Shown one piece after another: positions 3,837 to 33,902 of a stretch of DNA of 37,329 nucleotides. Source of the stretch: Polyangiaceae bacterium (GTDB lineage: Bacteria > Myxococcota_A > Polyangia > Polyangiales > Polyangiaceae). Location: positions 1 to 37,329 of the forward strand of contig JAKLKA010000066.1 of NCBI GenBank assembly GCA_023150915.1, read 5' to 3'. Every line of letters starts with the position of its first letter. Positions within the stretch are counted from its first letter, which is position 1. A program made the translations under genes and the position numbers. The notes beneath the pieces were generated by a model, which worked only from the letters and a program-made list of their open reading frames with translations, made no database searches and was not told where the DNA came from.

Positions 3837-4328
3837 ATGAGTGACTCGTCGTCGGTCAGTCGTCGTGCGCTGCTGGGCTACGCCGGCGCCGGCATCGCGG
3901 CCTCGGGCGCCGGCGGGTCGGCCGTGGTTCGCCCGGCGGCCCCCCGACCCAGCCTTCCGCCGTTGGCCGCGCTGGTCGCGCCCCTCGCGGCGGGCTCGGC
4001 GCTCGGGCGGTGGCGCGTCGAACGTCTGATCGAGCCCGAGGGCGGCGCGGCGAGCATCGTGCTGACCGACGCCGCGGGTGCCGAGTTCCAGCTCGACGTG
4101 TGCGCGCGCGACCCATCGCCCGGGGCCAGCCGCGGCCCGGCCATCACCGAGCACTTCGAGATCTTCGTCGCGAACCAGGGCGACGGCGCAACGGGCACTC
4201 ACGAAGACCACGGGCTGTGCGCGATGGCCCTGGGTGAGGTCATCCGTGGCAACGAGGCCCAGGCCGCGCGCACCGCCTTCGTCACGCTGGCCGAGCGCGA
4301 GGCACCCCGACGCCACGTGCGGGTGTGA
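3837..4328 (+). CDS. Hypothetical Tat-signal protein
   Basis: A 163-residue protein. Its N-terminus carries SRRALLGYAGAGIAASGAGG, which matches a twin-arginine leader (S-R-R-x-L-L followed by a weakly hydrophobic run). Tat export suggests a folded or cofactor-bearing protein. The mature part has a short beta-rich region and a segment with HFEIFVANQGDG and HEDHGLCAM, where two His residues flank acidic residues, possibly metal-binding. The gene overlaps the following one by 4 bp (GTGA), so the two are probably translationally coupled. Family not recognised. Confidence 0.65.
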   Translation: MSDSSSVSRRALLGYAGAGIAASGAGGSAVVRPAAPRPSLPPLAALVAPLAAGSALGRWRVERLIEPEGGAASIVLTDAAGAEFQLDVCARDPSPGASRGPAITEHFEIFVANQGDGATGTHEDHGLCAMALGEVIRGNEAQAARTAFVTLAEREAPRRHVRV

Positions 4329-4750
4329 TCGTCCAGCTGACCGCCGAACGACTCGCGAGCCGCGAACCGTGGCCGCCGCAGGGCTTCTGGGTCGAAGTGT
4401 TCGGCGTGACCGAGGCGATGCACGACCACCACGCGCCGGGCTTCCGGCAGCTGGTGCTGGGGTTGCGGCGAGCTCGCGCCGAGCACATCCCGTTTTCCGT
4501 GGTGTACCGCCTGACGCGCTCGAACTATCGGCACTCGGCAGAAGTGATCCGCGTGGCGCACACGCTGGGCGCCCGAGCCGTGGGCTTTTGCCCCGCGCTG
4601 GGGGATTGCCGCGTGCCCGCTCCGGTGCCCGAGCTGGCAGCGCCCTTCATCGAGCGAGCGTTCGACGTGGGCCGCGTGTGGGGCGTGCCGGTGGCCACGA
4701 CCGATCGCGCGGAGCCGCCGACTGCGAGGCAGTGGCTGCCCGAGCTGTGA
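4325..4750 (+). CDS. Radical-SAM-barrel-like protein lacking the FeS motif
   Basis: A 141-residue protein starting with GTG inside the previous stop. It resembles the second half of a radical SAM TIM barrel: a strand ending in an H-D-H-H motif, a PGFRQLVLGLRRARA helix, a strand plus LTRSNYRHSAEVIRVAHTLG, and a strand before a GDCRVP loop. In the window's own full radical SAM enzyme (23114-24700) the same order appears (LHGHTAKLHD, PGAFEQEVTGLRAALA, and a strand followed by a helix). The N-terminal Cx3Cx2C cluster is absent, so it cannot bind the usual 4Fe-4S cluster alone. It may be a partner or a remnant. The likeness is by eye. Confidence 0.55.
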   Translation: MIVQLTAERLASREPWPPQGFWVEVFGVTEAMHDHHAPGFRQLVLGLRRARAEHIPFSVVYRLTRSNYRHSAEVIRVAHTLGARAVGFCPALGDCRVPAPVPELAAPFIERAFDVGRVWGVPVATTDRAEPPTARQWLPEL

Positions 4751-10427: not shown

Positions 10428-10970
10428 ATGCAGGCACTCATCGACCAGTGGGAAGGGCTGACTTCTTGGGGATTTCGCCTGGCGGGCGACATCGGGGACG
10501 CCTTCTCGGGCGCGCTCGTGCTGTTCGTTCTGGGCCTGGTGCTGCTGGCCCTGGTCGGCGAGCGAATGGAACGGGTCGAAGGCGAGGTCGCTGCGCGACC
10601 CGCGCGATCGTTCGCGCTGGGCTTGCTGGGGATGATCGGTGCTGCGGTGATCGGCATCGCGCTGTGCGTGATGGTGATCGGCATCCCGTTCGCCATCGTC
10701 GGGGCCATGGGCGTCGCGGTGCTCACCTACGCCGGCGTGGTGGCCGTGCTCCGGACACTGGGCGCGGCGCTGATCCAGCACCGCACACCGAACCGCTACC
10801 TGCACCTCGCCCTCGGCTGCCTGCTGTTCTTCGTCGTCGGCTGCATCCCGTGGCTCGGGAAGTACGCCACCTTCGCAGTCCTGGCCACGGGCCTCGGGGC
10901 GGTGCTGGGCTCGCGGATCGCAGGGCTGTGGCGGCCTCGCAACGGTGGGGGCTCGTACGCCGCGGTGTGA
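10428..10970 (+). CDS. Small integral membrane protein
   Basis: A 180-residue protein from ATG 10428. It has a short amphipathic start, then four hydrophobic segments: about residues 28-45, 65-85, 87-108 and 125-160 (the last probably a hairpin with a GCIPWLGKYATF turn). A charged loop, GERMERVEGEVAARPARS, lies after the first. The layout resembles the membrane domain often found in bacterial polymer-forming or carbonic-anhydrase-like membrane proteins of unknown function. It diverges from the lipoprotein gene at 10357, and a 70-bp gap holds both promoters. No catalytic motif seen. Confidence 0.6.
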   Translation: MQALIDQWEGLTSWGFRLAGDIGDAFSGALVLFVLGLVLLALVGERMERVEGEVAARPARSFALGLLGMIGAAVIGIALCVMVIGIPFAIVGAMGVAVLTYAGVVAVLRTLGAALIQHRTPNRYLHLALGCLLFFVVGCIPWLGKYATFAVLATGLGAVLGSRIAGLWRPRNGGGSYAAV

Positions 10971-11006
10971 ACGACTAAGTTCGGGTCGCTGCTCTGGAGC
11001 GACCGA

Positions 11007-11735
11007 ATGGAAGAGGTCATCAAGAACGCGGAAGAAGCCGACCTCTTGGCGTTCGCCAAGACCTTCCTCGGCACGTATGGCACCCACGGGTTTCAGTCGC
11101 TGGCCAAGCGCGACACCGATCTGCTCTTGTTCTATGCCCTCGAGCACAGCGGCGTGATCGATTCGCGCGCCAGCAATCACCAGGTGGCACGGCGACTGAA
11201 GCTGACCCCGAAGCGCGTCTCGAACCTGCGGCGCGACGCCTGGGCGCGCTGGGCCGAGCCCAGCGACGTGCGAGACCACCTGGCCCACACGTTGAAGGCC
11301 TGTTTCGCCGCGCCGGCCCTGGAGCGCTTGCTCAAGCAGAACCGCGCGGCGTGGAAGACCGACAAGCTCATCCCGCTGTTGCTCGAGCATCCGAGCGACA
11401 GAGCCGAAGTAGAGCAGTTCCTGAAGTCCGCGGGCGACATCCCCCACTACGCGAAGAACCCCGAGGTCGTGCTCATCCCCCACGATCAGGTGATGGCGCT
11501 GGTGGACTTTGCCGCCGACGGCCTGGACAGGGCGCGCCAGGCGCTGATCAAGAAGAGCTTTGCCACGAACAGGAAGCTCAGCGAGCTCTTGACCCAGGAC
11601 ATCTCCAAGCTCTCGGCCGGCGAGGTTCGGACGGTGCTGAACGCCACGGTCGCCACGGTGATGGAGAAATCCACCATCGACCTTGCCGCGAAAGGCCTGA
11701 GCGCGCTGGTGCTCGGCTACCTGGGGACGCCCTAG
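11007..11735 (+). CDS. Hypothetical protein with HTH-like segment; its 3' end is one arm of a direct repeat
   Basis: A 242-residue protein with a GGAG at 10996-10999, seven bases before ATG 11007. It is soluble and mostly helical. At about residues 50-80, SNHQVARRLKLTPKRVSNLRRDAW looks like a helix-turn-helix: a first helix, a KLTPKRV turn and a basic recognition helix. No other domain was recognised. A central helical part (residues 95-140) is followed by a hydrophobic stretch with NPEVVLIPHDQVMALV and a final helix with an LGYLGTP tail. The last 25 bp, including the stop, are repeated exactly at 15278-15302, on the far side of an islet. DNA-binding is inference. Confidence 0.65.
   Translation: MEEVIKNAEEADLLAFAKTFLGTYGTHGFQSLAKRDTDLLLFYALEHSGVIDSRASNHQVARRLKLTPKRVSNLRRDAWARWAEPSDVRDHLAHTLKACFAAPALERLLKQNRAAWKTDKLIPLLLEHPSDRAEVEQFLKSAGDIPHYAKNPEVVLIPHDQVMALVDFAADGLDRARQALIKKSFATNRKLSELLTQDISKLSAGEVRTVLNATVATVMEKSTIDLAAKGLSALVLGYLGTP
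11711..11735 (+). repeat. Left copy of a 25-bp exact direct repeat (att-like)
   Basis: This is the 3' end of the preceding gene, beginning GCTCGGCTACCTGGGG and ending with the TAG stop. It is identical over 25 bp to 15278-15302. The bases on either side differ, so the match is confined to this block. The two copies bound 3542 bp (11736-15277). Duplication of a gene's 3' end is the pattern left by site-specific recombinases that use a gene end as attachment site; here no recombinase gene is recognisable inside. Confidence 0.8.
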
Positions 11736-11744
11736 CTAGATAGA

Positions 11745-11870
11745 GTGTTCGTCGAAGCCACCCGCCGCGCGGCACGCGTCGAGTATCGACGGCGGCGGCC
11801 GGAGCTCGGCGAGCTCTACCGAGTCGTCGCCGCCAACTACCGCACACTCGAGGCCCCCAAAAATGCCGCA
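11745..11870 (+). pseudogene. Possible N-terminal remnant of an IS91-type transposase
   Basis: About 40 residues read VEYRRRRPELGELYRVV and then AANYRTLEA, which resembles the opening of IS91-family transposases (a basic R/P-rich start, then LYRVV and a helix leading to the Cys-rich zinc finger). The zinc finger and catalytic Tyr region do not follow; after 11860 the frame changes character. It sits 10 bp inside the left repeat. Similarity is from memory of the family and covers a short stretch, so this is tentative. Confidence 0.35.
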
Positions 11871-11901
11871 ACTGGGCGTTCCGGGAAGCCGATGAAGGGC
11901 C

Positions 11902-12285
11902 GTGTCCATCACTGCTGCGTCCCGACCGGGGCGCTCTTGGCGCATTCGTCACAGGTTCCGAGGGAATGGAGACACGGCGGTGGTCAGCTACCGGTTCTGG
12001 ACGACCATCAACGGCGAGCAACGGCGCGTGCAGCCAGCCCACGGCAGCGCGGACGCGGCAACCGGGCGGCTGGTCCTGGACACCGGTTTCTTGGGCAAGA
12101 GCCTGTCCTCGAAGCTCGAGCGCGCCGCGGAATTCAGTCGCGAACCGTACTGTCCGTCGGGTTCATGCGCAGACGCTGCACGCCCCTATTTCGACGACGA
12201 GCCGATCGCGGCCTTCTGGCTGGGGGGCCGAGCGACCATCGTCACGCGCGGGCCCGCAACGCGAATCGTGGTCGTCGACCCCTGA
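11902..12285 (+). CDS. Small hypothetical protein, possibly 5'-truncated
   Basis: A 127-residue frame from GTG 11902; the first 25 residues are Arg-rich and look unlike the rest, so the natural start may lie elsewhere or be lost. From about residue 27 the sequence has alternating beta-type residues (VVSYRFWTTINGEQRRVQ), a short acidic stretch and a final strand AFWLGGRATIV. A pair of Cys (YCPSGSC) is in the middle. No family recognised. The TGA lies inside a 14-bp perfect palindrome (12283-12296), and two longer palindromes follow. Confidence 0.4.
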   Translation: MSITAASRPGRSWRIRHRFRGNGDTAVVSYRFWTTINGEQRRVQPAHGSADAATGRLVLDTGFLGKSLSSKLERAAEFSREPYCPSGSCADAARPYFDDEPIAAFWLGGRATIVTRGPATRIVVVDP

Positions 12286-12304
12286 CGCGCGCGTCAATCG
12301 CTTG

Positions 12305-12323
12305 GGGTCAGCAAGTCTGACCC
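12305..12323. repeat. Palindromic element, copy 1 (7-bp arms)
   Basis: GGGTCAG CAAGT CTGACCC: perfect 7-bp inverted arms around a 5-base loop. It lies 52 bp from an almost identical copy and between two convergent ORF ends (12285 plus and 12398 minus). It could act as a REP-like element or a bidirectional hairpin. Confidence 0.7.
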
Positions 12324-12356
12324 GCGCCCGATGGCCACGTCGCGCCCAGACACCGT

Positions 12357-12375
12357 GGGTCAGCACGTCTGACCC
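12357..12375. repeat. Palindromic element, copy 2 (7-bp arms)
   Basis: GGGTCAG CACGT CTGACCC, the same arms as copy 1 with one loop base changed (A to C). Flanking bases are also partly shared. A pair of identical-arm palindromes in tandem is typical of REP/BIME-type repeats. Confidence 0.7.
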
Positions 12376-12397
12376 GAGCCGCCGGAGCGCTCGCTCC

Positions 12398-12664
12398 TTA
12401 CGGCGCGGGTACCGGGTGCTCCGGCTCGAGGCTGAGCTCGTGCGCTTCGGCAGCGGTCTGCAGCACGCTCCGGCCAGCGGCGCCCTGCGGCGCGTTGGCG
12501 TGCTCGGCGGCGCACACCTCCGCCAGCTTCCGCAGGTCCTTCAGCGTCAGGGGCACCGCCAGCGAATCAAGCCAAGGCGGCGGCGCATGGAAAGGGAGCC
12601 CGAAAGCGCGGGCAACCAGAGAAACCAGGCAACTGGCGAGCTCGGGGCGCCGATAGGGGGCCAT
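12398..12664 (-). CDS. Small hypothetical protein (minus strand), possible fragment
   Basis: Reading from ATG 12664, 88 residues with natural composition: MAPYRRPELASCLVSLVARAF, then PPPWLDSLAVPLTLKDLRKLAEVC and an acidic, Pro-rich tail. The frame remains open further upstream, but there it overlaps the plus-strand gene at 12663 and looks like a shadow. The PLTLKDLRKL segment recalls the region joining domains in some regulators, but this is too short to assign. It may be a remnant of a longer gene. The two start codons sit back to back at CCATGG. Confidence 0.4.
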   Translation of the reverse strand: MAPYRRPELASCLVSLVARAFGLPFHAPPPWLDSLAVPLTLKDLRKLAEVCAAEHANAPQGAAGRSVLQTAAEAHELSLEPEHPVPAP

Positions 12665-13727
12665 GGCGCCCAGAATCGAGCAGCGTCCCAAGCCGCGCGC
12701 CGGGGGCGCTCCCACTGACCGAGTCGACGAGCAGCGCGGAGTCGAGCCGGCGCGCGCCAAGCCGAAGCCTGCCGTCCCCCCACCGCTCACGGACGCCGAG
12801 CGTCGCCTGTCCGAGATGTTCCGGCTGCGCCCCACGGTGATCGAGCGGACGAAACCAGCGCAGCGCCATCCGCCGCTCCAAGACCGCGGAACCGAAGAGA
12901 CGATTCGGACCGCGTTGTCGCAGCAGTCCGGGATGTCGATTCGAACCAAGCCGGAGCCCGGAAGCATCGAATTCGTCGCTCCGCGGCAACCTCTGCCGAA
13001 GCCAGTCATCAAACCGCTCTCGGGCGCTCCGCAGGCGCCCATCCCGGTCCGCATCGAAGCCGAGAGGCGGATCCAAGCGCTCGAGAGCAAGCACGCGAAG
13101 ATGAAGTCACAGGTCGAGCGTGCCATCGACGTGCACACCAAGGACGCCGCGCGCCTGCGGTCGCTCGCTCGCGAGGATGCGAAGCGTGGGATCTTCCGCG
13201 AAGGGCTCGAGGGAGCAGTCTGGCACTCGGAGCACCAAGCGACCCTCGCGAAGCAGATGCTCCGGGACTTGGAAGTGGAGCATCGAGCGGCGCGCTACGC
13301 CTACGATGCGTTGGTCGGCACCGTGAGCGGGCCGGCCATGCGTCAGGGAGACGGGCGGCGGGTCCCTCCGAACGAAGCCCGGTCGGCCGCCGAACGCTTC
13401 GCCGAGCGCGTCGAACGGTACAACCGTTCGGTCGAGACCCTGCGGACCTCGGGGCCAATCGCAGCCGTGGTTGCCACGACCGTCCCACTGGCCGCGGCGC
13501 TGAACGGCAAGGACTCCCTCGACGACGAGCACCTACGGGTCATGGACGCGATTCACAGCGCGGGGACCGTCGGAAACGTTCCGCTCGGGATCAAGCAGAC
13601 GAGCGATTCCAGGGCCAAGGGCGCGGCTCCCGCCGCTCCCGGCGTGGACCACCGGAGCGAAGCCCTGAACGCCACCCGTGACGCGAACGCACGAGCCAAC
13701 CAATCAGCCCATTACGGTGACCGATGA
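12663..13727 (+). CDS. Hypothetical coiled-coil protein, candidate effector
   Basis: A 354-residue protein. An in-frame TAG at 12654-12656 makes ATG 12663 the earliest possible start. Residues 1-125 are Pro/Arg/Lys-rich and probably disordered. Residues 130-220 form a long charged helix, probably coiled coil, starting RIEAERRIQALESKHAKMKS. Residues 265-295 hold a hydrophobic Ala/Val-rich stretch (GPIAAVVATTVPLAAALNG), and the tail is again flexible. There is no signal peptide. The stop overlaps the next ATG by 4 bp (ATGA). This arrangement, a large flexible protein coupled to a small two-helix membrane protein, is seen in polymorphic-toxin effector/partner pairs, but no toxin domain was recognised. 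Confidence 0.6.
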   Translation: MAPRIEQRPKPRAGGAPTDRVDEQRGVEPARAKPKPAVPPPLTDAERRLSEMFRLRPTVIERTKPAQRHPPLQDRGTEETIRTALSQQSGMSIRTKPEPGSIEFVAPRQPLPKPVIKPLSGAPQAPIPVRIEAERRIQALESKHAKMKSQVERAIDVHTKDAARLRSLAREDAKRGIFREGLEGAVWHSEHQATLAKQMLRDLEVEHRAARYAYDALVGTVSGPAMRQGDGRRVPPNEARSAAERFAERVERYNRSVETLRTSGPIAAVVATTVPLAAALNGKDSLDDEHLRVMDAIHSAGTVGNVPLGIKQTSDSRAKGAAPAAPGVDHRSEALNATRDANARANQSAHYGDR

Positions 13728-14125
13728 CCGCCTTTCAGCCCTACCGCGCGCCGCTCTCCATCCCCCATCGCCAGCCCGCGCCCCCTGATCCCACCTGGCG
13801 GAAGTACCGGCGCTCGGCCCGACTCTACAACCTGCTCCTCGCGGCGCTGCTGCTCGGTTTCCTCGGGATGGCGTTCGTGGACCCCGTCGCGTTGCCCGGG
13901 CTGTTTCTCGTGATCATGCACGCGCTCTTCGCGATGTACGCCTGGGTGCGGCGCTACCGTTGCCCGCGCTGCCTGCAGAGCCTCATCACCGGGAGCCGCG
14001 CGCCGTCGGCGTGGGCGCTGACGTTCGGCGTGTTTCCGAGCGATTGCACGCACTGCGGCGCCACGGCCGAGCCGCCCCAGTGCGAGTGCAACGGTTGTCG
14101 CGAACGCGCTTCAGCGTCGTCCTGA
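13724..14125 (+). CDS. Small membrane protein with zinc-ribbon-like Cys motifs
   Basis: A 133-residue protein translationally coupled to the gene before it. Residues about 35-75 hold two hydrophobic helices (LYNLLLAALLLGFLGMAFV and VALPGLFLVIMHALFAMYAW). The C-terminal third has CPRC, CTHC and a CECNGC stretch, which could bind zinc. Small double-spanning proteins coupled to a larger gene are often immunity or anchoring partners; this is inference. Its end overlaps the antitoxin-like frame that follows. Confidence 0.6.
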   Translation: MTAFQPYRAPLSIPHRQPAPPDPTWRKYRRSARLYNLLLAALLLGFLGMAFVDPVALPGLFLVIMHALFAMYAWVRRYRCPRCLQSLITGSRAPSAWALTFGVFPSDCTHCGATAEPPQCECNGCRERASASS

Positions 14126-14322
14126 GAGCCGAACCGACTGATCTGCCGGAAGGCAGAGAGGTCGAGCTTGTTGTCCTGGACGACGAGGAGTTCGCCCCAG
14201 AGGAGAAGGCTCGGTTGCTTCAGGCCATCGAGGACGGGGTCGAAGATTTCGAGCGAGGCGACCACATGGACGGCTTCGAGTTCATCGCCCAGCTCCGAGC
14301 CAAACGTGAAGCTGCCTCGTGA
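14095..14322 (+). CDS. Orphan antitoxin-like protein
   Basis: No ATG exists near the start of this frame; TTG 14095 (or GTG 14080/14086) are the only options, all overlapping the previous gene's end. The product of about 75 residues starts with a short strand and PTDLPEGREVELVVLDD, then EEKARLLQAIEDG and GFEFIAQLRAKR. This order (a beta strand, LPEG turn, a helix, then a basic C-terminal helix ending in x-L-R-x-K) is usual for small antitoxins that accompany RelE/ParE toxins. No toxin follows: the sequence after 14322 has only a short frame. Either the toxin was lost or the gene is a decayed remnant. Confidence 0.5.
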   Translation: MSRTRFSVVLRAEPTDLPEGREVELVVLDDEEFAPEEKARLLQAIEDGVEDFERGDHMDGFEFIAQLRAKREAAS

Positions 14323-14388
14323 ACGAGCGCGTCACACGACACCGGCGAGTCGCCCGTGGAAACTGCCCCTGCGCGAAGGAGGATGCAG

Positions 14389-14405
14389 GCATGCCATTGG
14401 CATGC
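14389..14405. promoter_or_regulatory. Palindromic operator upstream of vapB
   Basis: GCATGCCA T TGGCATGC: perfect 8-bp arms with one central base, ending 12 bp before the VapB start codon. Antitoxins of the ribbon-helix-helix type bind such palindromes over their own promoter, so this is a likely autoregulatory site. Confidence 0.65.
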
Positions 14406-14417
14406 TAGGTGTCCAGC

Positions 14418-14654
14418 ATGTCGAGCGTCCAGGTGAAGAACGTCCCCCGCGCGCTGCACGCCAAGCTGCGTCGCTACGCACGCGCTCGCGGCCAAACCGT
14501 GCGTGAGTTCGTGCTCGAGGCGGTGCGCCGGGACGTGGAGCGCATGGAGTTTCGCGAACGACTCGCGGCTCGCCAGCCGGTGGATCTCGGGCGACGCGCC
14601 GCGGTGACGCTCGACGAGGAGCGATCCGCGCGCGACGCGGAGCTAGAGCGTTGA
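14418..14654 (+). CDS. vapB: VapB/FitA-type antitoxin
   Basis: The ATG at 14418 is preferred over GTG 14409 because AGGTG at 14407-14411 sits six bases upstream. The 78-residue protein opens with SVQVKNVPRALHAKLRRYAR, the beta strand and helix of a ribbon-helix-helix DNA-binding domain, followed by GQTVREFVLEAVRRDVER. The rest is a flexible tail that would wrap around the toxin. It overlaps vapC by 4 bp (TTGA), the usual arrangement, and lies just behind a perfect palindrome. Function: neutralises VapC and represses the operon. Confidence 0.85.
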   Translation: MSSVQVKNVPRALHAKLRRYARARGQTVREFVLEAVRRDVERMEFRERLAARQPVDLGRRAAVTLDEERSARDAELER

Positions 14655-15046
14655 GCTTCGTCGTCGACGCTTCGATCGCGGTCGAGTACCTGCTGCGTAC
14701 CGACCTGGGCCAGAGGGTTGCCATGCTGGTGGACGCGACGGAGCTCTTCGCCCCCGAGCTACTTGACGCGGAGGTTCTCGCGGTCGTGCGCAGAGAGTGC
14801 TTGCGCGGTCGCTTGCCCGAAGCGCGGGCAGTCGAGGCGCTCGAAGATCTGGAAGCATGGCCGATCGAGCGATTACCCAACCGCACGTTGCTGCGACGCG
14901 CGTGGTGTTTCCGCCAAAACGTGTCCGCCTACGACGCGCTTTACCTCGCCGCTGCCGAGCAGTGCGGCTCGCCCGTCCTGACCGCCGATGGCCCGCTCGC
15001 GCGCGCGCCATCCCTGGGCATAGTGGTTCAGAGCGTTCGAATCTGA
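14651..15046 (+). CDS. vapC: VapC-type PIN-domain ribonuclease toxin
   Basis: A 131-residue PIN domain from TTG 14651. The four expected acidic residues are present: D6 (FVVDASIAVEYL), E41 (LLDAEVLAVV), D95 (SAYDALYLAAAE) and D113 (LTADGPLA). These coordinate Mg and cleave RNA, often tRNA, in known members. Length is typical. The gene is coupled to vapB, so toxin is made only with antitoxin. No sign of decay. The pair is the only intact toxin-antitoxin module of the islet and might help hold it in the chromosome. Confidence 0.88.
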   Translation: MSFVVDASIAVEYLLRTDLGQRVAMLVDATELFAPELLDAEVLAVVRRECLRGRLPEARAVEALEDLEAWPIERLPNRTLLRRAWCFRQNVSAYDALYLAAAEQCGSPVLTADGPLARAPSLGIVVQSVRI

Positions 15047-15348
15047 CCCGCCGCACGGCGGCGCGCATCGAGAAGATCCTCCGCGCGCTTCGTGATGCCC
15101 GGAGGCGCACGCTCGCCGCCGCCGTCACCGCCCCGGCCACTGTCACCGACGCCTCTCCCGGGACCAGGCGAGCGACCCGCACGCGCTCGTTGGCGCCGTC
15201 TTCGGAGTAGCTCGAGCGTTCTACGCAATACGCCAAGAGCGAGGAGCAGGCGTCTTCGAGCTAGGCGGAGGCAGCTCGCTCGGCTACCTGGGGACGCCCT
15301 AGCCTGCCCCTCGCCGTTCCGGGCCCACCGAGCTAAGCTCTGCGCACG
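15047..15348. other. Gap without a convincing gene
   Basis: Frames here are short and biased (Arg/Ala/Thr-rich) with no recognisable pattern. The only structure found is the 25-bp direct repeat copy at 15278-15302. The start of the HxsD-like operon at 15349 must have its promoter in this stretch or be read from the islet. Confidence 0.5.
15278..15302 (+). repeat. Right copy of the 25-bp direct repeat (att-like)
   Basis: Exact copy of 11711-11735, here not part of any convincing gene. The next gene, an HxsD-like CDS, begins at 15349. If the islet were removed between the two copies, the gene at 11007 would be followed directly by the HxsD operon with about 46 bp between them, which is a plausible ancestral arrangement. 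Confidence 0.8.
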
Positions 15349-15777
15349 ATGAGCGAGGGACAGCCGGCAGAGACGGTGATCGAGCTCGACGAGAGCCTGT
15401 ACCCGAAGGACGCGATCTACGGCGCGGCGTACGTGTTCATCGATCGTTGCTACGTGCACCTCGATCGGCCGGCCCCTGGCCGGGTGAGCGTGCGGCTGAA
15501 GCCCAAGGCGGATGTCGCCGTGGCCTCTGCCGACCTGGCGGGCGAGCTCGAGAACGAGCTGCTCGGCCAGGCGTGGCGCCGGCTCTTGGTGGACGAGAAC
15601 CGGCGGCTGGTGGAGACGGTGACCACCCAGGCCCTGGCCGGCGCGGCCGGGCCCGCCGGGCTCGACGAGCTGCTGGAGATGGATCTGGACGCCGAGGCAT
15701 TCGACGATCCGCTCGGCATCGCCATGAGCTGGGAAGAGAAGTACAAGAAGCGCGCGCCCAAGCCGGAGGGCGAGTGA
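15349..15777 (+). CDS. HxsD-like small protein, first copy
   Basis: A 142-residue protein from ATG 15349. It carries the pattern of the HxsD family of the His-Xaa-Ser system: YPKDAIYGAAYVFIDRCYV near the N-terminus, VSVRLK in the middle, and ENELLGQAWRRLLVDENRRL, close to the family's LLNDYxLRE-type helix. Family members average about 100 residues; this one has an added Asp/Glu-rich tail (LDELLEMDLDAEAF) and a basic end. HxsD genes normally accompany radical SAM proteins HxsB and HxsC and the substrate HxsA. None of these is adjacent. It overlaps the next gene by 4 bp (GTGA). The family call is by motif memory. Confidence 0.65.
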   Translation: MSEGQPAETVIELDESLYPKDAIYGAAYVFIDRCYVHLDRPAPGRVSVRLKPKADVAVASADLAGELENELLGQAWRRLLVDENRRLVETVTTQALAGAAGPAGLDELLEMDLDAEAFDDPLGIAMSWEEKYKKRAPKPEGE

Positions 15778-15989
15778 TCGAGCTCAGCTTCCGCCGTGAT
15801 CTCTACTCGGGGGCAGCCGTCGAAGAGGCGCTTCGGGCTTTCGCCGAGCACGCGGCGATCGAGCGCATCGAGTCCGAAGAAGCGTTCGTGCTGCGCGTGC
15901 GCGCGCCCGAAGGGGTCGACGAGCGCCTGCTCTCCGACGAGCTCGACAACTATGTGCTCGGCGCCACCATCGAGCGTCGCGGCGAGTGA
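15774..15989 (+). CDS. HxsD-like small protein, second copy
   Basis: A 71-residue protein from GTG 15774, inside the stop of the first copy. It also fits HxsD: IELSFRRDLYSGAAVEEALRA, then a hydrophobic strand FVLRVRAP, and LLSDELDNYVLGATIE, again near the LLNDYxLRE motif. It is shorter than the first, ending right after that helix. Two tandem HxsD-like proteins of different length suggest a heterodimer or two adaptor roles. The next gene begins four bases after its stop. Confidence 0.6.
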   Translation: MIELSFRRDLYSGAAVEEALRAFAEHAAIERIESEEAFVLRVRAPEGVDERLLSDELDNYVLGATIERRGE

Positions 15990-15992
15990 CGC

Positions 15993-16904
15993 TTGGCGCG
16001 GCGATCGAACTCGTTCGACTTCGAGCCCGCGCGCGACGTGGTGCGCCCCGCCGGCACGGCCTGCCCGCTGAGCTCGGAGTCGGGCCCGCTGGCGGGCGCC
16101 CCCAACCCAGGTCGCGCGCTGCTCTTGCGGCTCGAGGGCCGAATGCGACTGTTCGTGGCCCACGGCCGCGACTTCGACGACGACGAAGTCGCGAGGGTCA
16201 AGGCACTGGGTCAGATCTACGTCGACCGGAGCACGAAGCAGTGGCCGGACGACTTCTCGGCCGATCTGCTGGCGCTTGCACCGGTGGCAGAGTGTGGGGC
16301 GTGCGCCCGGCGCGGCGACTGCCCGGGTGCGTTCCGCGCGCGGGGTCACGACGTGTTCGCCGAAGACGAGGCGGCCGTCCGCGCGATCTTGCGGGGTCTG
16401 GCTGGACGCGTGCTGGACGTGGGCGCTGGCGATGCGCCCTACGCGGCCGAGCTTCGGCCCGGTGCCGAGTCGGGCCTGCTCCAGTACCTGGCCGTGGATC
16501 CGGACGCGCAGCGACTGTCGCTGGTCCGGGGGCGCCTTCCTCGAGCCGAGATCTTCGTGGGCTCGCTCGACGAGCTCGGGGCCGAGCGGCAGTTCGACCA
16601 CGTGCTGTTCCTGCGCAGTCTGAACCACCTGCCCGATGCGCGGCGCGCCGTGGCTTCCGCATGTGAGCGACTGACCCCCGGTGGCACCCTGGTGCTGGTG
16701 GACGACGGGGCCTTTGGCTTGGTGCGCAGCGCTGCACAACGGGCCCGCGCCCAGCAGGGGAGCGGCGCGTTCGAGCACTTCCGCAACGACAGCTCGGTCG
16801 ATGTCCGGGCGCACGTTGCAGGTTTGCCGCTGCGGCTCCTCGAAGAGCGACCGATCCGACCCGGCGGGAGCAATCAGTGGCTCTTGAGGTACCAGAGGGA
16901 ATGA
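15993..16904 (+). CDS. Cys-motif / SAM-dependent methyltransferase fusion protein
   Basis: A 303-residue protein from TTG 15993 (the in-frame TGA at 15987 rules out any earlier start). The N-terminal 115 residues hold a strand-rich part and a Cys cluster CGACARRGDC (C101, C104, C110), which resembles the auxiliary FeS site of SPASM-type domains. From residue 139 a class I methyltransferase fold follows: motif I VLDVGAGDAPY (140-150), YLAVDPDAQRL as the second strand, and FDHVLFLRSLNHL before a final TPGGTLVLVDDG. It likely methylates a protein or small molecule, using SAM, in the cytoplasm. Its position right behind two HxsD-like genes suggests it acts with them. It overlaps the next ATG by 4 bp. 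Confidence 0.7.
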   Translation: MARRSNSFDFEPARDVVRPAGTACPLSSESGPLAGAPNPGRALLLRLEGRMRLFVAHGRDFDDDEVARVKALGQIYVDRSTKQWPDDFSADLLALAPVAECGACARRGDCPGAFRARGHDVFAEDEAAVRAILRGLAGRVLDVGAGDAPYAAELRPGAESGLLQYLAVDPDAQRLSLVRGRLPRAEIFVGSLDELGAERQFDHVLFLRSLNHLPDARRAVASACERLTPGGTLVLVDDGAFGLVRSAAQRARAQQGSGAFEHFRNDSSVDVRAHVAGLPLRLLEERPIRPGGSNQWLLRYQRE

Positions 16905-23113: not shown

Positions 23114-24700
23114 GTGGCGGACGCGACGCTGATTCGGGAAGAGGCCGCGCACGAGCAGAAGAACTGGGTGCGGCTGACGAACGACTGCAACAACCACTGC
23201 GTCTTCTGCCTGGACACGATGGCCTTCGACGGCACCGTGCGACCCTCGATGGAGATCAAGGCCCAGATCGTCGAGGGGCGGAAGCGCGGGGCGACCCGAC
23301 TGATCCTCTCGGGCGGCGAGCCGACCATCCACCCACACTTCCTCGATTTCGTGAAGCTCGGGCGGCGCTCGGGGTATCGCCGCGTTCAGACGGTGACCAA
23401 CGGGCGCATGTTCGCCTATCCCGAGTTCCTGGCTCGGGCCGCCGACTCGGGCCTGGACGAGATCACCTTCAGCCTGCACGGCCACACCGCCAAGCTCCAC
23501 GACGCGCTGGTGGGTGCCCCCGGGGCGTTCGAGCAAGAGGTGACCGGGCTGCGCGCCGCCCTGGCAGCGGGCCGCTTCATCGTCAACGTGGACATCGTGA
23601 TCAACAAGATGAACGTGGTGCATCTGCCCGAGATGCTCGAGACGTTCATCGACTGGGGCGTGCGCGAGTTCGACCTGCTGCAAGTCGTCCCTTTTGGCAA
23701 CGCCTGGGGCAAGGCCAAAGACGCGTTGTTCTACGACCTCGACGGGCACGAGCAGGCACTCAGCCGTGCCTTCGCGATCGCGCGGCGGCCCGGGATCCAG
23801 ATCTGGCTCAACCGCTTCCCGCCGCCCCACGCCGAAGGCTTCGAAGAGCTGATTCAGGATCCGTACAAGCTGAACGACGAGGTCCGCGGGCGGCGCGAAG
23901 AGTTCGACCGCTATCTCACCCTGGGGGAGAAGCTGGATTGTCGCGAGCCCGAGCGCTGCAAGCGCTGCTACCTCGAACCGCTGTGCGACGGGCTCGATCG
24001 CGTGCTCGAACACCGCGCCTTGCCCGAGGTCGAGGTCTTGCGCTTGGTCGATCCCCCGCCACGTGCCGAAGCGCTGCCCCGCGCGAAGGTGGCCCACGTC
24101 GTGGCCGAAGGCGCCTCGCGGGCGCTGGCGCTGGCGTCGCTCTCGCCGAACGCCGAGCTGTGGCTCGAGCTCGAATCCTATCGCGACCTCGACTCGGCCG
24201 ACCTCGGCGGTCGCGCCGTCGGGCGCATCTTCGTTGCCACGGCGGTCGACCTGGCGCGGGTGCGCGATTGGCCCGGGGAGTTCGAAATCGCGGTGATGCT
24301 GCGGGCCGAGACGGCGCCGCTGGTGCCGTCTTTGGTGACGCTCGGCGCGCGCCTTCTGGTCTGCGCACCCTCTTACCAGCGCGTCACCGACCAGCAGCGC
24401 GAAGACGTGGACACCCGAGCGCTGTGCACGGCGCTGCCCGCCGCGGTGCGCACGCGCGGCATCCCGGCGTGTCTGGGCGGTCGCGAGCCCGAGCGCCGCG
24501 AGCCGGTGTTCGACACGGCAGCACTCGGGCCCGACGGGCGCGTCGACATGGCCCGCCACACCCGGCGCTTCATCGCAGCGGGCTTCATGACCAAGAGCCG
24601 CCGCTGCGGCGACTGCCGGTACGACGCCCGGTGCGCGGGCGTGCACATCAACTTCGCGCGCGCCCACGGATACCGAATGCTCGAGCCGGTGGTAGGCTAG
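23114..24700 (+). CDS. Radical SAM enzyme with two extra Cys clusters
   Basis: A 528-residue protein from GTG 23114, with AAGGAGC at 23104-23110. The radical SAM cluster motif is CNNHCVFC (C25, C29, C32), and GGEP lies at 67-70. Two further Cys groups follow: C276, C282, C285 and C291 after the barrel, and C498, C501 and C507 near the C-terminus. These may bind auxiliary FeS clusters as in SPASM/twitch enzymes that modify peptides or proteins. Between them is a domain of about 200 residues of unknown type. The lipoprotein gene at 24705 starts 4 bp after its stop, so they are probably co-transcribed. Product and substrate unknown. Confidence 0.8.
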   Translation: MADATLIREEAAHEQKNWVRLTNDCNNHCVFCLDTMAFDGTVRPSMEIKAQIVEGRKRGATRLILSGGEPTIHPHFLDFVKLGRRSGYRRVQTVTNGRMFAYPEFLARAADSGLDEITFSLHGHTAKLHDALVGAPGAFEQEVTGLRAALAAGRFIVNVDIVINKMNVVHLPEMLETFIDWGVREFDLLQVVPFGNAWGKAKDALFYDLDGHEQALSRAFAIARRPGIQIWLNRFPPPHAEGFEELIQDPYKLNDEVRGRREEFDRYLTLGEKLDCREPERCKRCYLEPLCDGLDRVLEHRALPEVEVLRLVDPPPRAEALPRAKVAHVVAEGASRALALASLSPNAELWLELESYRDLDSADLGGRAVGRIFVATAVDLARVRDWPGEFEIAVMLRAETAPLVPSLVTLGARLLVCAPSYQRVTDQQREDVDTRALCTALPAAVRTRGIPACLGGREPERREPVFDTAALGPDGRVDMARHTRRFIAAGFMTKSRRCGDCRYDARCAGVHINFARAHGYRMLEPVVG

Positions 24701-31104: not shown

Positions 31105-32391
31105 CTAGTGGGCGCCCTTCTTGGGCCTGAGCGTGGCGCCGCCGGTGAGGTGCTGGTTCCAACTGGCCGGCGCGAAGCCGTTGTCCACCGGAACCAGGCT
31201 GATGCAGTCGGGCACCGGGCACACGATCTTGCACAGGTTGCAGCCCACGCACTCACTCTCGTCGACGATGGGCACGCGGGTGGCCGTGGCCCCTGGCGAC
31301 TCTTTCGCCGGGTGAATGCACTGGTGTGCACCGTCGTGACAGGCCACCACGCAGAGCTGGCAGCCGATGCACTTCTTCTCGTCGATCTTGGCGATGGTCT
31401 CGTAGTTCAGATCCAGGTCGCCCCACTCGGAATAGGCCGGCACGGCCTTGCCGATCAGCTGGTCGAGGGTCTGGAAGCCGTGGCTCTGCATGTATTCGTC
31501 GAGGCCTTCGATCATGTCCTCGACGATGCGATAGCCCTTGAGCATCACCTCGGTGCACACCTGCACACTCGAGGCGCCCAGCAGCATGAACTCGACGGCG
31601 TCCCGCCAGTTGGTGATGCCACCGATGCCGCTGATGGGGATGCTGAAGTCGTCGGAGCGCGCCAGGCGCGCCAGCATGTGCAGGGCAATGGGTTTGACCG
31701 CCGCGCCACAATACCCACCGTTGGTGCTCAGCGAGCCCACCCGCGGTTCGGGCACGAAGCGGTCAATGTCGACGGCAATGATGCTCTTGATGGTGTTGAT
31801 CAACGACACGCCGTGAGCACCACCGCGCTGCGCGGCCAGCCCATGCGGCAAGATGTCCGAGACGTTGGGGGTCAACTTCACCAGCACCGGCACCGTCGAA
31901 TACTCGACGGCCCACGAGGTGATGCGTTCGTTGACCTTCGGCTCTTGCCCCACCGCCGAGCCCATGCCGCGCTCGCACATGCCGTGCGGGCATCCGAAGT
32001 TCAGCTCCAGGCCGTCGGCCCCGGCGTCGATCGAGCGCTTGATGATCGCTTTCCACTCTTCTTCGGTCTCGACCATCAGCGAGACCACCACCGCATGCTT
32101 CGGGAACTTCTTCTTGGTCTCGTAAATTTCCTTGAAGTTCACCTCGAGGGGGCGGTCGGTGATCAGCTCGATGTTGTTGAAGCCGATGGCGCGAGTGCCC
32201 GAATAGTTGATGGCGCCAAAGCGGCTGGACACGTTCTGGATCGGCACGCCCAGCGTCTTCCACACCGCGCCGCCCCAGCCAGCGTCGAACGCGCGCTGCA
32301 CTTGCGCACCCGAGTTCGCGGGTGGGGCCGAGGCCAACCAGAACGGATTGGGAGAGCGGATGCCCCCGCAGTTGGTGGACAGATCAGGCAT
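31105..32391 (-). CDS. preA: Dihydropyrimidine dehydrogenase subunit PreA
   Basis: A 428-residue protein. The N-terminal FMN barrel is of the dihydroorotate-dehydrogenase type: SPNPFWLASAPPANSG, AVWKTLG, LELNFGCPHGMCERGMG, and SGIGGITNWRDAVEFMLLGA. At the C-terminus two 4Fe-4S motifs follow: C341, C344, C347, C351 and C381, C384, C387, C391. Together with PreT it reduces uracil and thymine with NADH, the first step of reductive pyrimidine breakdown. Its ATG overlaps the preT stop by 8 bp, so the two are coupled. The hydantoinase that would act next is not in the window. Confidence 0.93.
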   Translation of the reverse strand: MPDLSTNCGGIRSPNPFWLASAPPANSGAQVQRAFDAGWGGAVWKTLGVPIQNVSSRFGAINYSGTRAIGFNNIELITDRPLEVNFKEIYETKKKFPKHAVVVSLMVETEEEWKAIIKRSIDAGADGLELNFGCPHGMCERGMGSAVGQEPKVNERITSWAVEYSTVPVLVKLTPNVSDILPHGLAAQRGGAHGVSLINTIKSIIAVDIDRFVPEPRVGSLSTNGGYCGAAVKPIALHMLARLARSDDFSIPISGIGGITNWRDAVEFMLLGASSVQVCTEVMLKGYRIVEDMIEGLDEYMQSHGFQTLDQLIGKAVPAYSEWGDLDLNYETIAKIDEKKCIGCQLCVVACHDGAHQCIHPAKESPGATATRVPIVDESECVGCNLCKIVCPVPDCISLVPVDNGFAPASWNQHLTGGATLRPKKGAH

Positions 32392-33694
32392 CTTTGCCTC
32401 CCAGGTGACGATGAATGGCCTGCGCCGCAGCCTTGCCTTCGGCGGCGGCGTTCACGACTTCTTTGCCGCCGTTCCGGCAGTCGCCCCCGGCGAACCAACC
32501 CTTGCGCCCGGTGGCGCCCGCGGCGTCGGTGACGACGGACCCGTTCTGCACGCCGATGCCCGAGAGGCCCGAGAGCATCTGCCCCAAGGTGGACTGCCCG
32601 ATGGCGATCAGCACCAACTGGGCGTCGAGCGTGAATTCGCTGCCGGCGATGGGCTTCTTCTGCGCGTCGGTGCGCACCAAGCGCACCCGCTCGACCCGAG
32701 CGTTGCCCTCGAATCCGATCGGCACGGCGTGGAAGGCCCCGGCGACGCCCACCTCGCGCGCCGCCAGCCATTCGTGACGGTAGCCGGGCATTTGCGCTTC
32801 GGCGCCGCGATACGCCAGCGTGACGCTGGGGACGCCCAGGCCCGCCAGCTCGCGCACACCGTCGATGGCGGTGTTGCCGCCCCCGACCACCAGCGCGCTC
32901 TTCACGCCGCTCAGCTCCAGCTTGCCCAGCTTCAGTCGCTCGATCAGCTCCACGGCGCCGTGCACGCCCGGCAGGTCTTCACCCGGAACGCCCAAGCGGG
33001 TGTCGGGGCCCAGGCCCACGCCGACGAACACCGCGTCGTGCTTCTTCTCCAGCTCGGCGAGCGTGAGGTCTTTGCCGACTTCCACGCCGGTCTCGAGCTG
33101 GACGCCGCCGATGCCCAGCACCCACTGTGCTTCTTGGACAGAACGGTCGGCGCGCATCTTGTAGGGCGCGATGCCGGTGGTGTTGAGGCCGCCGATCACG
33201 GGCCGCTTCTCGTAGACCGTGCAGGCGTGGCCCAGACGCCTGAGCTCGTGCGCCGCGGCCAGCGAGGCGGGGCCGGCGCCAATCAAGCCCACGCTCTTGC
33301 CGGTGGGGGCGCCCGCTTCGAAGAAGCGCCAGCCCTGCTCGTAGGCGCGGTCGGTCGCGTGGCGCTGAAGCTTGCCGATCTGGATCGGAGGCACGCCCAT
33401 CTGGTTGTAGACGCAGTCGCCGACGCACAAGACCTCGACCGGGCACACCCGGGCGCAGCTCATGCCCAGGATGTTCGCCTCGAAGATGGTCCGGGCCGAA
33501 CCCTTGAGGTTGCCGGTGGCGATCTTGCGAATGAACTCCGGCACGTCGATGTGGGTCGGGCATGCCTGGGTGCACGGTGCGTCCGAGCAGTACAGACAGC
33601 GGTTGGCCTCGATCAGCGCCTGCTTGGCGTCGTACTCGTGCTTGTAGTCCTCGAAGACGCTCTCGCTCCGATCGGTCGGTATCGGTTTCGACAT
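32384..33694 (-). CDS. preT: Dihydropyrimidine dehydrogenase subunit PreT
   Basis: Start at 33694 (MSKPIP) is preferred to the ATG one codon upstream, because GGAGG lies four bases away. The 436-residue protein has an N-terminal FeS region (C33, C36, C41, C45 and a second Cys group with MSCARVCPVEVLCVGDC), then FAD binding (LIGAGPASLAAAHEL), NAD(P)H binding (VVGGGNTAIDGVREL) and a closing GGDCRNGGKEVVNAAAEG segment. It passes electrons from NAD(P)H to PreA. The shape is that of glutamate-synthase small-subunit-like reductases, but the pairing with PreA settles the function. It diverges from the YchJ-type gene at 33903. Confidence 0.9.
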   Translation of the reverse strand: MSKPIPTDRSESVFEDYKHEYDAKQALIEANRCLYCSDAPCTQACPTHIDVPEFIRKIATGNLKGSARTIFEANILGMSCARVCPVEVLCVGDCVYNQMGVPPIQIGKLQRHATDRAYEQGWRFFEAGAPTGKSVGLIGAGPASLAAAHELRRLGHACTVYEKRPVIGGLNTTGIAPYKMRADRSVQEAQWVLGIGGVQLETGVEVGKDLTLAELEKKHDAVFVGVGLGPDTRLGVPGEDLPGVHGAVELIERLKLGKLELSGVKSALVVGGGNTAIDGVRELAGLGVPSVTLAYRGAEAQMPGYRHEWLAAREVGVAGAFHAVPIGFEGNARVERVRLVRTDAQKKPIAGSEFTLDAQLVLIAIGQSTLGQMLSGLSGIGVQNGSVVTDAAGATGRKGWFAGGDCRNGGKEVVNAAAEGKAAAQAIHRHLGGKDA

Positions 33695-33902
33695 CATCCC
33701 TCCGGCGCCGAAAGGGGCATAATAGATCACGGGGCGCTGGCCAAAGCCAAGGTTTCGCTTTCGCCGCCGGCCGGCCCCTTGGCGCGTCTGACCACGCGGC
33801 AGGGCGGGGCCCGCTCTGCCGGCTCACGCCGCGCTTGTCGGTGAGACCATTCGGTGGCATTCACGCCGCCCCAGCCAGCCTCTGGTGAGAAGGAGACACC
33901 CC

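Follow-up and report, generated by a model that had tools for sequence, protein, structure and literature searches.

Two HxsD-type genes and the methyltransferase gene adjoining them in a Polyangiaceae genome are probably one dispersed piece of a His-Xaa-Ser (Hxs) maturation system of the HxsA4 type, with a co-inherited methyltransferase. An earlier note on this DNA had proposed a candidate new modification system; the methyltransferase would instead be an undescribed component of the HxsA4-type system, to which the genes appear to belong rather than to a separate new one. The window, i.e., the whole stretch of DNA that was analysed (37,329 nucleotides, contig JAKLKA010000066.1 of assembly GCA_023150915.1; the genome is called G000), carries the following features, where P1, P2 and P3 denote HxsD, HxsD' (HxsD_rel) and the methyltransferase (MT), respectively, and rSAM stands for radical SAM:

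15349..15777, + strand: HxsD (P1), 142 aa, match to TIGR03976
15774..15989, + strand: HxsD' (P2), 71 aa, GTG start, match to NF038315
15993..16904, + strand: class I SAM-dependent methyltransferase (P3), 303 aa, TTG start, with an N-terminal Cys-motif domain
16293..16322, + strand: CxxCx5C motif of P3 (residues 101-110), putative metal or FeS site
23114..24700, + strand: rSAM protein, 528 aa, HxsC4-related, match to PF04055, 6.2 kb downstream of the MT gene
3837..4328, + strand: accessory protein, 163 aa, with a Tat-like signal (SRRALLG); G099 has a homologue immediately 5' of its HxsD operon
4325..4750, + strand: small rSAM remnant, the translation of which lacks CxxxCxxC; weak match (31 bits) to a small rSAM profile

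Genes were called by codon-usage scoring, which missed small genes and also the MT genes of loci L038, L093 and L105/L147.

The HxsD pair and its methyltransferase neighbour

Each of the two small proteins, which the earlier note had called HxsD-like, exceeds the curated cut-off of its family model. P1 passes narrowly against TIGR03976 (HxsD; 54.2 bits, E = 1.4e-14, cut-off 50), a cut-off that a related HxsD in L045 does not reach (37.9 bits), and P2 scores 62.9 bits (E = 2.4e-17) against NF038315, 'HxsD-like protein', with a cut-off of 41. The resemblance is not a chance one. The window HxsD is the only match to TIGR03976 in G000, and the window HxsD' the only match to NF038315 above cut-off. 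It had also been stated correctly that the three genes overlap or nearly touch, the start of P2 overlapping the stop of P1 by 4 nt and P3 starting at 15993 after the stop of P2 at 15989.

The predicted HxsD model (mean pLDDT 81.7) has a beta-alpha-beta-beta-alpha core of high confidence, followed by a flexible tail of low confidence that bears the conserved motif FDDPLGIAxSWEEKY, a loose version of which is present in 62/66. The alignments used 48 of 50 HxsD proteins (A1) and 33 of 50 HxsD' proteins (A3). A structure search with the model returned no match at E ≤ 0.001 (best Foldseek E 6.3e-3) and nothing at a VIA Z of 8 or more (best Z 6.8), and solved structures gave no match to the HxsD alignment at E ≤ 0.1. 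Rpb11/Pcc1-like and ferredoxin-like rows were set aside as HxsD relatives, this arrangement being common.

The partner of the pair had been described as a SAM methyltransferase with a CxxCx5C motif, and this description holds. Four Pfam methyltransferase models match P3 above their gathering scores, and its model (pLDDT 91.6, pTM 0.89) aligns with methyltransferases at VIA Z values up to 18.5 over 162 residues, so that both the Pfam gathering score and the Rossmann fold place P3 among the class I SAM methyltransferases. Its best NCBIfam match is the DVU_1556 family methyltransferase (NF045667), a family outside of which P3 falls with 27.2 bits against a cut-off of 155. Approximately the first 80 residues of the model are scarcely covered by structure matches. 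The cysteines at 101, 104 and 110, which form the CxxCx5C motif, are invariant in 28/28 rows of the methyltransferase alignment (A2, using 28 of 32 proteins), and a fourth cysteine (residue 24) is at least 90% conserved; among 54 methyltransferase gene calls, 4 showed no such motif. The same pattern occurs in the C-terminal part of the rSAM proteins of the system, i.e., in 11/11 HxsC4, 65/67 HxsB, 30/31 proteins of the 528-aa type and 40/43 fused halves, in a survey that left out 15 loci from duplicate genomes. Since most rSAM proteins of the system carry this pattern, it is reasonable to think of an auxiliary cluster in P3 as well, and its CxxCx5C motif is a possible metal or FeS site.

Dispersed Hxs components and their co-inheritance

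All five components of the HxsA4/HxsB/HxsC4/HxsD/HxsD_rel system (NF038313, TIGR03978, NF038332, TIGR03976 and NF038315, respectively) are encoded in G000 above their curated cut-offs: besides the window pair, HxsB lies on contig C159 (540.5 bits, cut-off 370), HxsA4 on C166 (115.7 bits, cut-off 55) and HxsC4 on C282 (553.4 bits, cut-off 500). No classical HxsC was found in G000 above cut-off (best 101.5 bits vs. 267.9). The HxsA4 precursor contains 14 Ser-His-Gly (SHG) units followed by SW, in agreement with the earlier suggestion that a target-like peptide is encoded elsewhere. In G000 the system is not clustered at one place of the assembly, its components being spread over C4, C159, C166 and C282 of 295 contigs, and HxsA4 sits between unrelated genes (L072). 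In the same-genus G099, assembled into 5 contigs, the parts of the system are likewise split over C4, C2 and C3. Because the window HxsD/HxsD' pair is the sole such pair in the genome, it would have to serve HxsB and HxsA4, if those work at all.

Compared with the HxsA4-type system, the genes of G000 are thus distributed over four contigs, HxsD-HxsD' is coupled to MT instead of HxsB, and two proteins are added, MT and the 528-aa rSAM protein, both of which fall under the cut-off of every NCBIfam model listed for them. The canonical HxsABCD system (e.g., of Pseudomonas aeruginosa), whose genes are named in a list in PMC8446631, shares the HxsD and HxsB families with G000; G000 differs from it by an A4-type repeat protein, the lack of an HxsC above cut-off and the extra HxsD'. 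Two other papers touch upon bacterial Hxs systems: PMC9062424, which makes a comparison in passing and cites the description by Haft and Basu, and PMC6537148.

Co-inheritance was assessed among 79 genomes of the family by strict counting, with MT scored above 100 bits and HxsB and HxsA4 above cut-off, because rSAM proteins, repeats and methyltransferases are widespread: at the looser E ≤ 0.001, the HxsB model matches 14/14 control genomes and 77/79 family genomes, the HxsA4 model matches 1/14 controls, and the MT query finds 65/79 family genomes. Counted strictly, MT is present in 31 genomes, HxsB in 33, HxsA4 in 30, HxsD' in 31 and the 528-aa rSAM protein in 32; all five occur together in 28/79 and none of them in 44/79. 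MT and the 528-aa rSAM protein agree in 78/79 genomes (both 31, MT alone 0, rSAM alone 1, neither 47; Fisher p = 3.7e-21, a value that overstates the association since related genomes are not independent), the rSAM protein being present in 31/31 MT genomes. As to departures from the pattern, G320 has MT and the rSAM protein without HxsB, HxsA4 or HxsD' above cut-off, G301 has the other four components without MT, and G293, G294 and G339 have HxsB without HxsA4, HxsD' or MT at the thresholds used, probably carrying another Hxs type.

The association extends to the phylum. Among 282 Myxococcota genomes, with HxsD' counted at E ≤ 0.001 (97 genomes, 91 of them above cut-off) and MT at E ≤ 1e-20, 61 have MT and HxsD', 1 has MT alone, 36 have HxsD' alone and 184 have neither. 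The co-occurrence with HxsD' in 61 of 62 MT genomes bears out the claim that the methyltransferase belongs with the HxsD pair. HxsD' (E ≤ 0.001) is present in 87/88 Myxococcota genomes with HxsA4 above cut-off, and HxsA4 above cut-off is missing from 7 of the 62 genomes with MT. From these 7 genomes and the 36/97 HxsD' genomes without MT, it follows that MT is a frequent, not an obligatory, component and that its tie to the system is imperfect.

Gene order and the probable radical SAM partner

HxsD' was found above cut-off at 33 places in 31/79 same-family genomes, with a single place in 29 of the 31 and two in G111 and G244. Its neighbour is MT at 11 places, HxsB or an HxsB-like protein at 19 (in G310 and G330 the neighbour is HxsB-like and does not reach the cut-off) and neither at three (G301, G307, G329). 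The order HxsD-HxsD'-MT therefore recurs at 11/33 places, clearly at 10 of them and with an MT fragment at a contig end in G326. The earlier note had proposed checking whether it recurs in other Myxococcota that lack HxsB and HxsC; the order does recur, but HxsB is not absent, since all 11 MT-adjacent genomes encode it, 10 of them above cut-off and G305 as two contig-end fragments below cut-off. HxsA4 is above cut-off in 10/11 of these genomes (not G327) and HxsC4 in 9/11 (not G056 and G326).

The arrangement is compact in G099 (L031), in which the genes for the Tat-like protein, the rSAM remnant, HxsD, HxsD', MT and the 528-aa rSAM protein follow one another with 4-nt overlaps or gaps of at most 10 nt. 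In G276 and the window, genes of this set lie far apart, with the rSAM gene 6.1 kb (G276, L131) and 6.2 kb (window) downstream of MT and the Tat-like gene 5.9 kb and 11.0 kb, respectively, upstream of HxsD; the window is accordingly read as a spread-out version of the compact G099 operon.

Relative to the same-genus G276 (L032), in which a 180-aa gene, the counterpart of window 10428-10970, lies directly 5' of HxsD, the window has about 4.3 kb of extra sequence at 10971-15348. This stretch holds a ribbon-helix-helix-like gene (14409-14654) and a PIN-domain gene (14651-15046), which look like a toxin-antitoxin pair. Further along the window, at 31105-33730, a dihydroorotate-dehydrogenase-like FeS protein adjoins a Fer4_20 flavoprotein, and we take the two to resemble the dihydropyrimidine dehydrogenase pair.

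The protein encoded at 23114-24700 matches PF04055 with 66.4 bits and falls under the cut-offs of both HxsC4 (NF038332; 120.6 bits vs. 500) and HxsC (TIGR03977; 97.3 bits vs. 267.9). In G099, G056 and G111, the gene for its homologue and that for MT share 4 nt, and the 528-aa protein is likely the partner of the methyltransferase. In 43/57 rows of an MT tree, MT is fused behind an rSAM domain, giving proteins of approximately 560-670 aa with the rSAM domain N-terminal and MT C-terminal. In this tree (14 loci from duplicate genomes skipped; solo MT defined as a gene call of at most 450 aa, L101 being a short gene call and L102 sitting close to the end of a contig), the solo and fused labels require 6 changes, and fused rows fall on both sides of the deepest branch, as placed by midpoint rooting only. 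The fusion heads the order [rSAM-MT]-HxsD-HxsD'-HxsB-HxsA4 in at least three loci, L141, L145 (Plesiocystis pacifica SIR-1) and L153; L154 has the fusion-headed order of L141 with HxsC4, HxsA4 not being among its called genes, and L146 follows the order [rSAM-MT]-HxsD-HxsD' as far as HxsB. In the Polyangium records L132-L134, the fusion gene overlaps a 528-aa rSAM gene by 4 nt. A scan of contigs across genomes gave at least 62 loci, 38 of which (L131-L168) were annotated; MT is present in 34/38, and 25 of these 34 have another component of the system inside the fetched flank.

In a tree of the rSAM proteins (69 rows, with a limited number of each type), the sampled rows contain three distinct, supported clades, one each of fused-type halves, 528-aa proteins and HxsC4. 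The 12-row fused-type clade takes in two unfused 309-aa proteins (L060, L068), and the distant fused row L157, on a long branch, falls outside it. A simple fission of the fusion into MT and a 300-aa rSAM gene beside HxsB (L071), with both halves kept, is unsupported, because the 300-aa rSAM protein of L071 is placed in a different clade from the fused rSAM halves.

The 163-aa Tat-like protein matches nothing in NCBIfam or Pfam at E ≤ 0.01, and its homologues recur in many fetched Hxs loci; it could serve as an exported carrier or be a further substrate. Direct inspection showed the twin-arginine motif in the window, L031, L034 and L035, and a count with a permissive pattern (35/38) was left unused, being noisy and including upstream sequence. 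A short form similar to the rSAM remnant occurs in L031, and 252-aa homologues with CxxxCxxC occur in L034 and L035. Between the Tat-like/rSAM pair and HxsD, L086 (9072-11120) and L034 (2597-4426) encode a large protein that has Gly-rich segments and repeats of Cys-Asn-Gly and Asp-rich units, the start of which has a resembling counterpart in L033. In L198 and L199, HxsA4 is flanked by the Tat-like gene and the small rSAM gene, and a divergent HxsB-like protein, below cut-off, adjoins HxsD'.

Possible roles of the methyltransferase module

The earlier note had taken the three abutting genes, with no rSAM gene between them, for a methyltransferase-based Hxs variant working without rSAM maturases. 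This is the least probable of the readings considered and is given hardly any weight, since the same genome encodes HxsB, HxsC4 and HxsA4, all 11 genomes with the same order encode HxsB, and the window itself holds an rSAM protein downstream; the methyltransferase does not replace the rSAM maturases. It is also very improbable that MT is an ordinary methyltransferase of small molecules, with no tie to hxsD beyond its position. Class I folds are generic and several unrelated methyltransferase families match P3 weakly, but MT has its own N-terminal Cys domain, is fused to rSAM domains in most rows of its tree (43/57) and co-occurs almost perfectly with HxsD', being found without it in 1/62 genomes.

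More room has to be left for a separate module, in which HxsD/HxsD', MT and the 528-aa rSAM protein would act on a target of their own, most likely the 163-aa Tat-like protein, and HxsD would be shared with the HxsA4 system. Tat export suits proteins that are finished in the cytoplasm. The gene order of L031 includes no HxsB or HxsA4 within the 10.3 kb fetched, and L034, L035 and L098 are similar to it, save for 1.8-1.9 kb of spacing ahead of HxsD. However, in L086, L111 and L122 the Tat-like gene is also found about 2.1 kb away from HxsD-HxsD'-HxsB-HxsA4 clusters that lack MT, and the presence of MT across genomes follows that of HxsA4 and HxsB, which leads us to regard a separate module as rather unlikely.

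Under the preferred reading, i.e., a dispersed HxsA4-type system with a co-inherited methyltransferase, HxsD and HxsD' would pair up as a small heterodimer and offer the HxsA4 peptide to at least two maturases, one shared pair serving both HxsB and the MT/rSAM module. HxsB would modify the Ser-His-Gly repeats, and MT and its rSAM partner, fused in many species and perhaps the separate 528-aa protein in the window, would pass on a methyl or one-carbon unit, either to the peptide itself or to an intermediate that the rSAM step has made. The Cys site of MT may hold a metal or an FeS cluster that aids docking or stability. Since the HxsD model has no clear structural relative, the docking heterodimer is backed by no known fold, and the reaction, the substrate and the complex of the module are proposals drawn from gene content, co-inheritance, fusion and the swap of neighbours.

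A bolder version would have the rSAM-MT fusion perform two-step one-carbon chemistry on the Ser-His-Gly repeats, the rSAM half attaching a SAM-derived unit and the MT half resolving it, with the HxsD/HxsD' heterodimer carrying the peptide between HxsB and the module, which would here consist of the MT half and the 528-aa rSAM protein. We consider this version improbable, and we are not aware of any repeat protein that undergoes two-component chemistry of this kind. A likeness by description is found in C10P/C10Q of CC-1065 biosynthesis (PMC6050322), a two-component cyclopropanase in which an rSAM enzyme and a methyltransferase work together in two steps; it differs in that the rSAM enzyme is HemN-like and the pair acts on a small molecule.

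In the portion of the literature accessible to the search, no paper was found that gives the chemical product of His-Xaa-Ser systems of the HxsA4 type, and in the main text of a review on methyltransferases in peptide natural products (PMC11285071) the terms 'His-Xaa-Ser' and 'histidine' are absent. The tie of a Cys-site methyltransferase to the Hxs system predicts an MT-dependent mass shift on HxsA4, and the link supplies a gene set for reconstitution. An Hxs system can thus persist as scattered genes, which gene-cluster mining would miss.
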